From assembly GCA_029246545.1 (NCBI GenBank), contig JAQWMX010000004.1, positions 1 through 64,000 of the forward strand: a DNA stretch of 64,000 bases, in the 5' to 3' direction. The position numbers and the translations under genes are program-made. Position 1 is the stretch's first letter. Every line of letters begins with the position of its first letter. This document shows, piece by piece, positions 251 through 3,980 of the stretch. The stretch is from Gammaproteobacteria bacterium. Lineage in GTDB: Bacteria; Pseudomonadota; Gammaproteobacteria; Pseudomonadales; Pseudohongiellaceae. A model generated the notes under the pieces. That model made no database searches. It saw nothing but the letters and a program-made list of their open reading frames with translations, and had not been told where the DNA came from.

Positions 251-760
251 TTATAATAAAGACAGGATTTCTTGTTCAAACTGTTCTTTAGTTGCGAATC
301 CAATATGTTGATGACAGATGTTGCCAGTCCTATCTATCATGAAAGTGGTTGGGAATCCGACTAATGGCCCATAAAAATCTTTTATGTCATCACGTCCATC
401 TCCAATCAACACAGGATAGTCCATTTTCATATCTTCTATATAGATTTCCAGTGCAGGTACAGCATCATCAATAGAAACGCCAAGCACAGTAAAGCCTTGA
501 TCTCCATATTCATCAAGCAATTCAATAAAACCAGGAATTTCTATCCGGCAGGGAGCACACCACGTAGCCCAAAAATCCAGAAGGATTACATCACCTGCAT
601 AATCACTGAACTGAACATCCGCACCACTGACATCTTTAAGTGTAAAATCTAGGTCAGCTACGCGATCCTTTACGCTACAGGCAGAGTTCTGAGCATAAAG
701 AAAACTTGAGCACAGAAGTAACACGAAGGTAGTTAAGAATGTTGTAATTTTTTTTAACAT
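251..760 (-). CDS. Secreted TlpA/ResA-like thiol-disulfide oxidoreductase
   Basis: A 169-residue periplasmic thioredoxin-fold protein. Residues 1-24 look like a Sec signal peptide (KK followed by a hydrophobic stretch ending LYAQ). The active site WCAPC is at Cys68-Cys71, and the cis-proline region reads VGFPTTF. The redox role is to reduce or exchange disulfides outside the cytoplasm, in the AhpC-TSA/TlpA family. A longer ORF runs upstream, but the ATG at 760 has a near-perfect AGGAGG seven or so bases before it and starts the signal peptide, so this start is preferred. It lies 55 bp behind the DUF3179 gene (stop at 816) on the same strand and is probably co-transcribed with it, which suggests that it may recycle the redox centre of that protein. 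The partnership is inferred. Confidence 0.9.
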   Translation of the reverse strand: MLKKITTFLTTFVLLLCSSFLYAQNSACSVKDRVADLDFTLKDVSGADVQFSDYAGDVILLDFWATWCAPCRIEIPGFIELLDEYGDQGFTVLGVSIDDAVPALEIYIEDMKMDYPVLIGDGRDDIKDFYGPLVGFPTTFMIDRTGNICHQHIGFATKEQFEQEILSLL

Positions 761-815: not shown

Positions 816-1871
816 TCACTCGAAAATATCGATTCTATCGCCGCCAAATGACATAACGAAACCATACCAGCGAGTGAACACTTGCAAAGGCCTGGCAACA
901 TCAAGTTTATTCATCTCAGCATCATAAATAACGCTATCACGTATAATACGGCCGTCATCAAGTACCACATCTGCACCTTCAACACTTGCAGAATCAGCAT
1001 CAACAAATAAAGCAACCGGTACAGAGATCACTGGATCTAAATACACAATTAGACTTTGATCTCCAAACTGATCTAAGACAATACGGCCATTTTCACGCAA
1101 GACATCACTTGGGTAAAAACGATAAACTTCGTCGTCTATCCAGACACCGAGCCCCATTTCCATACGCGGTCGTCGATCATCTTCTGCTCCTAATGTCACA
1201 GAGAATGGATCGGATAAGTCAAAATCCATGTTCACCATGTCACGGTCTATGCCATCACCTCGGCCTTCCCAATCAGAGATTGCTATTGCCATTGTGGGAT
1301 CCATTACCAGCGCTTGGGAAACATTCATTTGCATGAGATTAGACACCTGCATGCGATCACCAATATGTGGGCCATACATAGCTTCACCGGTGAAGTGATT
1401 CCAAAGTGATTTGGTTTGTTGATCTTCCATGACGAACAAGGCGTCGTAGAGACCTGAATTAACAAAGTTATACATATTGCCGTTATCGTCTTCCTGAGGA
1501 GCCAAACTGACCCCTGAATTACAGATTACTCAGAAAGTTGCCATCCAGTTTTTCCCATCGGCGCTGCCTTGGGCAATATGATGAAAGGACATTTGGGATT
1601 TGAGCATGGCTAAATTACCAAGCGCTGTTTCTGTCACCAGTAAATCCATTTCAGCGTTTACGATTCCTGCTTCTAACAATGTCTGCAGGCTCTGCATGTC
1701 GTCTTCAGTTACATAGTAAGTTTCAAACCAGCCTTCCCCATAAGTGCTGTAGCGATCGATATCAAAGGTTTCTGCAGATTGCGCTTGGGCCAAGTTTATA
1801 CTCGACATTAACAATGCTAGAGACCCCAGTACTGAGTACAAAAACCCTGAAAATTGATTCTTTTTACTCAT
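816..1871 (-). CDS. Secreted DUF3179 protein with in-frame TGA, candidate selenoprotein (Sec114)
   Basis: Two collinear ORFs in one frame (1530..1871 and the stretch ending at 816) are separated only by a TGA at 1530..1532. Read through, the product is 351 residues: signal peptide 1-31 (ending AQAQ), then a DUF3179 domain. The TGA codon is residue 114 in the context TF-X-VICNSG. DUF3179 proteins usually have a C-x-x-C-N motif here, so X replaces the first cysteine and gives Sec-x-x-Cys. Family signature continues after it (NSGLYD, SLWNHFTGEA at 155-164). A SECIS-like hairpin sits just downstream. The start at 1871 is chosen because GGAG lies 6 bases upstream; ATGs at 1874 and 1883 are alternatives. 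The biochemical function of DUF3179 is unknown to me. The alternative is a pseudogene with a Cys-to-stop change, but no other damage is visible over 1 kb. Confidence 0.82.
1494..1518 (-). promoter_or_regulatory. SECIS-like hairpin downstream of the in-frame UGA
   Basis: Counting from the base after UGA, nucleotides 15-21 (AGGGGUC) pair with 27-33 (GGCUCCU) to give seven base pairs including two G-U wobbles. They close a five-base apical loop AGUUU. A C-C mismatch and two further pairs (U13-A35, U12-G36) can extend the stem. Bacterial SECIS elements bound by SelB lie in the coding region directly after UGA, with the apical loop about 16-37 nt downstream and a G, typically GU, at its start; the loop here begins at nucleotide 22 with G in its second position followed by U. 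The fold was found by eye and no energy was calculated. Confidence 0.7.
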
Positions 1872-2181: not shown

Positions 2182-2257
2182 TGGCGTCCCCTAGGGGTTT
2201 CGAACCCCTGTTGCCTGGATGAAAACCAGGTGTCCTAGGCCTCTAGACGAAGGGGAC
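2182..2257 (-). tRNA. tRNA-Glu (UUC)
   Basis: 76 nt with encoded CCA. The acceptor stem starts GTCCCC at 2257, the anticodon stem CCTGG/CCAGG encloses loop TTTTCAT with anticodon TTC, and the T arm contains GGTTCGA. It lies 32 nt after tRNA-Ala and downstream of gltX, which encodes the synthetase that charges it; this arrangement is common in gammaproteobacteria. Confidence 0.97.
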
Positions 2258-2289: not shown

Positions 2290-2365
2290 TGGTGGAGCCA
2301 AGGAGGATCGAACTCCTGACCTCAACGCTGCCAGCGTCGCGCTCTCCCAGCTGAGCTATGGCCCC
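2290..2365 (-). tRNA. tRNA-Ala (GGC)
   Basis: 76 nt with encoded CCA. The 5' end is GGGGCC at 2365, the D arm contains AGCTCAGCTGGGAGAG, the anticodon loop is CTGGCAG with anticodon GGC, and the T arm contains GTTCGATCC. It is the first gene of a two-tRNA transcript, with its promoter at 2434..2462. Confidence 0.97.
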
Positions 2366-2477: not shown

Positions 2478-3980
2478 TTAAGATTGTCCTGACTTTTGTT
2501 CTAGAGCAGCATATTCTTTTTCGAGATTCTTAAGCTGTTTTTTGGAAACTCCACCAAGAATTGCAATGGCGTGCCTTAACCTCGCCCTAGTTATATCTAG
2601 ACCTAGAACAGCGATAGAATCAATCACTGAAGTTGAAACTGAACTTCCTGCTATTGCAATGAAAAGCGGAAATAAGAAATCCCGAATCTTTATACCCATT
2701 GATTCAGCTAATAGCATAAGGGCTGTTTCAATTCGGTCTCGATGCCAAGCATCCAACCCTTCAATGCGCCAAGCTATAAATTGTAAAATTTTCTTAGCAT
2801 CTTCATGTTTAAGTTGTTTATGTTCAAAGCTTTGCTCATCAATAGTCGGCATTCCAGAAAAAAAGAATGCAGCTAAGGGCGCAATATCACTAAAACGTTC
2901 TACTCTTTGTTTAATTAAAGGCACGATAGCTTGTAACATATCAGGTTGAAACGCCCATTGAGAAAAACGTTGAATGAATTCATCATCAGATAAGGCTTCA
3001 CGCAAATAACGTCCGTTTAACCAATCCAGCTTCTCTGCATCAAATACAGGGCCACCCAAAGAAACCCGGTTAATATCAAAATTAGATATCATTTCTTCCA
3101 AAGAAAACATTTCTTGCTCATCAGGCATTGACCAACCCATCATGCCCAAAAAGTTACATACTGCCTCTGGTAAATAACCCATGCGTTGATAATAGCCAAC
3201 ACTAGCTGGGTTCTTACGTTTACTTAGTTTGCTTTTGTCGGCATTCCGCAGCAAAGGCATATGGCATAACACAGGGGGTTCCCAACCAAAATATTGGTAC
3301 AATAACAAATGCTTTGGTGCCGAGTTAATCCATTCTTCGCCACGAATCACATGCGTAATTTGCATTAAATGATCATCAACAACATTAGCCAAATGATAAG
3401 TAGGTAAGCCATCAGACTTCATTAACACTTGCATATCAATTTGCTGCCAATCGATAGTTACATCATCTCGTAACATATCTTTGACTACGCAGCTCCCCGT
3501 TTCTGGAACTTTCATGCGAATAACAGGGGGAATGTTTTGTTGCAGTTTGTCAGCTCTATCTGAGTCACTAAGATTCAGGCAATGACCGTCATAACCTAAT
3601 GGCTTTTTCTCGGTCATCTGCTGCTTACGTAATTCGCTCAGTCTTTCCGAGCTACAAAAACAATGAAATGCATGGCCTTCATCTAAGAGCTTTTCAACAT
3701 GCGTCTTATAGATATCGGATCGTTCACTTTGACGATAAGGTCCAAAATCTCCACCTTTATCAGGACCTTCATCCCAGTTCATCCCCAGCCAACTTAGTGC
3801 AGCCAATATATCGTCTTCAGATTTTTGATTACTACGCACTTGGTCAGTATCTTCTATACGTAATATGAATTTGCCGCCATGTTGTCGCGCATAGCAAAGA
3901 TTAAATAATGCTATATAGGCTGTGCCAACATGAGGATCACCAGTTGGTGAAGGGGCAATTCTGGTTCTTACTTCGGACAT
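2478..3980 (-). CDS. gltX: Glutamyl-tRNA synthetase
   Basis: 500 residues, full length for bacterial GltX. It ligates glutamate to tRNA-Glu in the cytoplasm. The class I HIGH-like signature appears near the N-terminus as [12 protein letters not shown] (about residues 10-21), followed by RIEDTD. The KMSKS-equivalent loop reads KLSKRKNP around residue 250, the usual form in many proteobacterial GltX proteins. The C-terminal helical anticodon-binding domain is intact, ending in a charged Lys/Glu-rich helix. ATG start at 3980. It is encoded upstream of the tRNA pair that includes tRNA-Glu, its substrate, as in Pseudomonas. Confidence 0.97.

Follow-up and report, generated by a model that had tools for sequence, protein, structure and literature searches.

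The locus analysed here raises the question of whether a TGA codon inside a DUF3179 gene ends the protein or is read as selenocysteine (Sec), and what such a protein would do. The window, i.e., the whole stretch of 64,000 nucleotides that was analysed, covers positions 1 to 64,000 of contig JAQWMX010000004.1 of a Gammaproteobacteria bacterium of the family Pseudohongiellaceae.

The interrupted DUF3179 gene

Translation of positions 1871 to 816 of the reverse strand gave 351 residues interrupted once, at codon 114, by a TGA (1532..1530) with the context ...WMATF-U-VICNSG.... This retranslation agrees with the original prediction, in which the frame was open except for the TGA at 1530..1532, flanked by TF and VICN. 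The terminal stop is a second TGA (818..816), and the organism must therefore distinguish two UGAs within one gene. When the internal stop was taken as a residue, the protein matched Pfam DUF3179 (PF11376) at residues 92-297 with 56.5 bits against a gathering cut-off of 27, and four relatives (L034, L035, L036, and L041) were likewise above the cut-off. A signal-peptide-like segment was recognized by eye at the N-terminus. The window gene is the sole DUF3179 match of its own genome. No TGA of the window other than that at 1532 is preceded by 40 or more open codons and followed by 100 or more. The coordinates of the features are given in Table 1. As a warning for annotation, a mechanical ORF listing shows the gene as two frames, one of 117 and one of 229 amino acids. 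The stop codon as such is what a pseudogene would present, i.e., a nonsense mutation in a DUF3179 gene that leaves a dead short product.

Table 1. Features of the DUF3179 locus, in window coordinates
Feature	Position	Strand	Description
Putative DUF3179 selenoprotein gene	819..1871	-	351 residues with predicted Sec114; Pfam PF11376 match; stop TGA 816-818
UGA probably read as selenocysteine	1530..1532	-	Residue 114, motif U-x-x-C; TGA in relatives, Cys in homologues
Bacterial SECIS-like hairpin	1497..1515	-	7-bp stem AGGGGUC/GGCUCCU, loop AGUUU (or 8 bp, loop GUU)
TlpA/ResA-like thioredoxin gene	251..760	-	169 amino acids from ATG at 760; WCAPC motif; export by eye

Two tRNA genes, tRNA-Glu(ttc) and tRNA-Ala(ggc), were located at window positions 2182-2257 and 2290-2365 (-), between the DUF3179 gene and the ORF at 2478-3980. 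This ORF has the look of a glutamyl-tRNA synthetase (named by eye).

Selenocysteine machinery

The genes on which a selenocysteine reading depends, i.e., selA, selB, selD, and a tRNA-Sec, were all present in the own genome (2.25 Mb, 97% complete). SelB scored 407.4 bits, SelA 588 bits, and SelD 220.4 bits, each over its curated cut-off. The tRNA-Sec scored 68.2 bits against an Rfam cut-off of 47, and ARAGORN also reported a tRNA-SeC with anticodon tca. The four genes are clustered on one contig (C17 of G000). The SelD on this contig (L009 15630-17807) carries a fused pyridine nucleotide-disulfide oxidoreductase domain. With the model named 'fusion_not_SelD' it scored 472.8, below that model's cut-off of 700, and it was over the selD cut-off.

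The tRNA-Sec model was also run on control genomes. At a loose threshold, some match appeared in all 14 of them, with 5 over the cut-off, and at E 1e-9 with stricter filters three of the 14 were left. The cut-off lies near noise, so only matches well above it were counted. Among the genomes of the own GTDB family that bear the DUF3179 gene, SelB was found in 8/8 (the match in G091 is partial and under the cut-off) and tRNA-Sec in 7/8. The exception, G022, gave no tRNA-Sec match at E 1e-9. This may be a gap, because the SelB match of G022 is cut short by the end of its contig, and it is on that side of SelB that G000 and G020 have the tRNA-Sec gene. The tRNA-Sec is commoner than the DUF3179-TGA gene in the family (86/137 genomes), and most of these genomes must therefore spend selenocysteine on something else.

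TGA and cysteine forms in relatives

DUF3179 genes were found in 8 of the 137 genomes of the own GTDB family (E 1e-10). These hold nine copies, that of the window included. In each, the matched stretch contains a single TGA, and the codon concerned is the same in all nine. A tenth copy with TGA at this common codon, L034, comes from a MAG labelled Acidobacteria and is 45% identical in its best segment. In alignment A1, the nine other TGA copies were 48-62% identical to the window protein. One genome (G092) holds two different TGA copies, L039 and L040. The genome of L034 (G510) has a tRNA-Sec of 75.1 bits plus a second, borderline match of 47.6 bits.

The exchange of TGA for cysteine, which the original prediction proposed to look for, was found in the same column. 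A homologue labelled Aureispira (L035, 30% identity) has Cys at the Sec column, and its genome gave nothing above the tRNA-Sec cut-off (best 39.2 bits), a soft result as the completeness of this genome is not given. A search at order level, in a sample of 390 genomes from the larger order, yielded another 27 DUF3179 copies, from 26 genomes, at E 1e-8 or better. None of the 27 has a TGA in the match, and one (L085) has a TAA. Cys stands at the Sec column in 27/27, a count read by eye from the alignment rows together with the motif listing. The second Cys of the motif is present in 25 of them and is replaced by Thr in L098 and by Ser in L100.

Other stops or frameshifts in close relatives, which the original prediction named as a refutation, were seen in one of the ten TGA copies. 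This relative, L043, is truncated, as a pseudogene lineage would be: it starts at the edge of a contig (the end of G072 contig C40), and beyond about residue 215 of the L042 frame it no longer matches. No credible TlpA match was found in the stretch fetched for it, and its genome keeps a tRNA-Sec. L043 is a decaying or misassembled copy, i.e., a 3'-truncated remnant. However, the window and the nine other copies share one TGA codon, and nine of the ten are otherwise open, which a nonsense mutation in a dying gene does not lead one to expect.

SECIS-like hairpin

A spacer of 14 nt separates the UGA from the 7-bp stem, and the hairpin spans nt 15-33 after the UGA, just as had been claimed (start at 15 nt, loop AGUUU). 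With a closing A-U pair added, the stem becomes 8 bp with a GUU loop, 22 nt after the UGA, at -8.7 kcal/mol. For the bacterial SECIS (bSECIS), PMC13188914 gives as limits a loop of 3-9 nt, a stem of 4-16 bp, a distance of 16-37 nt from the UGA, a G in the first two loop positions, and -7.5 kcal/mol or better. The window hairpin in its 8-bp form satisfies these constraints.

By itself the hairpin is not convincing, because it was not exceptional when folded alone (z -0.97 and -0.96). A bSECIS-like hairpin at -7.5 kcal/mol or better follows 24 of the 2592 TGA trinucleotides of the window (both strands). It is more than chance because it is conserved across the relatives, a point on which the comparison upheld the prediction. 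The six inner stem pairs are present in 10/10 TGA copies, with the loop AGUYU. The outermost pair is formed in five of the ten and broken in 4/9 distinct rows. RNAalifold gave the matching stem plus a further closing A-U pair, with loop GUY, in all ten. Pairing was standard in 93.7% of the pair cells of the 7-bp stem, versus 30-67% when one side was slid. Covariation is weak: the two double-change cells were equalled by 65/500 shuffles, and the covariation score by 27/500. As 26-nt folds, seven of the ten TGA copies reached -7.5 kcal/mol or better, and L036, L038, and L042 lay at -6.7 to -7.2. In the Cys homologue L035, the 19 nt of the hairpin gave -2.9 kcal/mol.

The codons of the hairpin were compared in eight sequences, leaving aside the near-duplicate L039, the fragment L043, and the Cys form L035. 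Where the residue is conserved in all eight, pairwise codon identity was 0.74 for the 5 columns that fall within the 12 codons following the TGA, versus 0.37 for the 73 columns elsewhere, and none of 20,000 degeneracy-matched resamplings attained 0.74. In all ten TGA copies, Gly120 is GGG and Ser122 is AGT. These values show the hairpin codons to be strongly frozen, well beyond protein constraint. Such freezing is not expected of a dead gene, and the genome has the machinery for Sec insertion, so that a pseudogene is hardly credible here.

The UGA might also be read through with a residue other than Sec, e.g., Trp or Cys by a near-cognate tRNA, and the residue is not directly visible in the sequence. 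However, the in-family genomes with the TGA form have SelB (8/8) and tRNA-Sec (7/8), the window hairpin is within the constraints of PMC13188914, and the residue exchanged for the TGA is Cys in all 27 order-level copies and in L035. Read-through with another residue is thus very improbable. Decoding of codon 114 as selenocysteine, as the original prediction proposed, is supported by the machinery, the Cys exchange, and the conserved hairpin, and from this comparative evidence we put its probability at about 0.96. In this decoding, SelB would bind the hairpin and deliver Sec-tRNA-Sec at UGA 114, and the final UGA of the gene would terminate translation. Hairpins and SelB proteins from different species may fail to fit one another.

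Downstream TlpA/ResA-like gene

The gene that directly follows DUF3179 in the window encodes a product with Pfam AhpC-TSA and Redoxin domains over the cut-offs. The product reached the curated cut-off of none of the 11 listed NCBIfam models, e.g., ResA (101.3 vs 170), TlpA (72.4 vs 230), and DsbE (54.3 vs 123.15). It thus resembles the TlpA/ResA/DsbE thiol-disulfide oxidoreductases in its domain and WCAPC motif, but it is not assignable to one of them. Directly after DUF3179, and sharing its strand, stands a TlpA/ResA-like gene in the window, L036, L037, L038, L039, and L042, i.e., in four genera. The distance from the DUF3179 stop to the ATG of this gene is 55 nt in the window and 9-29 nt in the other five. 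All six neighbours share WC[AG]PC and begin with a signal-peptide-like segment; the Pfam result is that of the window protein. The neighbour is present in 6/7 of the assessable in-family TGA copies, or 6/8 when L034 is included; L041, which ends at a contig edge, and the remnant L043 were not assessable. Neither L040, which is the second of the two G092 copies, nor the acidobacterial L034 is followed by it. The downstream gene is likely on the same transcript as the DUF3179 gene and its product a redox partner, as judged from gene order and motifs.

The neighbourhoods of the Cys copies are different. No thioredoxin-type motif was found in the 72 frames of at least 100 codons flanking the 27 Cys copies (flanks of about 1.5 kb or less), and Pfam identified no recurring partner in the 10 of 19 same-strand downstream frames on which it was run. 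As an exception, a SoxA/TsdA-type cytochrome c-like frame lies downstream of L076 and L083, two Cys copies from a single genus.

Possible function

The exported DUF3179 protein would be a selenol/thiol redox protein, in which Sec114-x-x-Cys117 may cycle through a selenenylsulfide. The idea of a selenenylsulfide in a Sec-x-x-Cys pair is drawn from what is generally known of thiol redox proteins. This pair might swap electrons with the product of the next gene, the TlpA/ResA-like thioredoxin, a partnership that is proposed because the genes adjoin. We judge such a periplasmic selenol redox relay to have about an even chance. This gives DUF3179 a specific candidate for its electron partner, the TlpA-like protein.

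The Sec/Cys pair could instead bind a metal or act alone on a substrate, with the adjacency being incidental. With this fit the lack of a PDB relative by sequence and of any biochemistry found, the frames of at least 100 codons beside the 27 Cys copies, which have no thioredoxin motif, and L040 and L034, which have no TlpA neighbour. L098 (Thr) and L100 (Ser) also lack the second Cys that a CxxC relay would need. However, same-strand adjacency in 6/7 assessable in-family copies from four genera speaks against this, as does the fact that both proteins look exported (by eye). A selenoprotein without the relay is given slightly less than even odds.

A further step would be to suppose that the TGA-bearing DUF3179 subfamily and the TlpA-like protein beside it form a dedicated selenol redox pair in the periplasm, with the DUF3179 protein possibly the main Sec client of the 2.25-Mb genome. 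We consider this unlikely, but the following observations fit it. Of the five genomes of the own genus, the one that holds the window is alone in having the DUF3179-TGA gene and alone in having a tRNA-Sec over the cut-off; the four congeners have neither. A SECIS model searched against the own genome gave 14 matches at E 10 or better, among which this site was first (1.2e-14) and the others had E 0.4 or worse; 150 of 1328 candidates had been scored in a first look with the model. No interrupted gene was found at the nine of the 13 weaker matches that were checked, and the two molybdopterin-oxidoreductase matches had no stop inside. The TGA-interrupted frames L113 and L118 lie away from the matches of the model and were taken as chance.

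Comparison with known selenoproteins

DUF3179 is already tabulated as a bacterial selenoprotein family with the motif UxxC/T in reviews of 2022 and 2026 (PMC9312934, PMC13188914). Both cite Zhang and Gladyshev 2007 for it. The table of PMC9230427 has a DUF3179 row, in which no function is given. A Sec-containing DUF3179 as a new redox link for a family without function, which the original prediction put forward, has therefore been overtaken by these tables. The find is mostly a confirmation of a known family and is a well-supported further member of it.

The selenoproteins reported in 2007 from an Olavius algarvensis symbiont share PF11376 and the motif class UxxC/T with the present copies, as the tables of PMC9312934 and PMC13188914 give them. 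Beside this 2007 set, which is known here via the reviews, the feature of the present copies is the TlpA-like neighbour that most in-family copies have. What is added is that the TGA-bearing subfamily is usually followed by a TlpA/ResA-like thioredoxin gene, a gene order that suggests a partner. No printed link between DUF3179 and TlpA was found in open-licence PubMed Central papers; one review has both, in separate rows of its table.

The Cys forms of the order are mostly of the CPLCGT type. The Sec column of the window gene is Cys in 27/27 of them, and F136, D150, and W157 are widely common to both. However, the window has HHIAQG...TFUxxCNSG where most of the order-level Cys forms have HEIVND...[FY]CPLCGTG, and, unlike in the TGA subfamily, none of the examined frames beside the Cys forms had a thioredoxin motif. 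The Sec column would mark the reactive cysteine of the DUF3179 family, which Pfam still lists as of unknown function.

Structure and mobility searches

No sequence match for the A1 profile was found in the PDB at E 1. An AlphaFold2 model built from a four-sequence alignment had a mean pLDDT of 54.9 and a pTM of 0.43 and was set aside. Its Foldseek search against the PDB had no hit at E 0.001, with TM-scores of the top rows near 0.1, and was set aside as well. In viral contigs, none of the 95 pattern matches was a relative, and tblastn gave no match in plasmids. A mobile origin is thus not indicated by these two collections. By eye in alignment A1, the region around Sec114 and residues 240-290 resemble an internal repeat.
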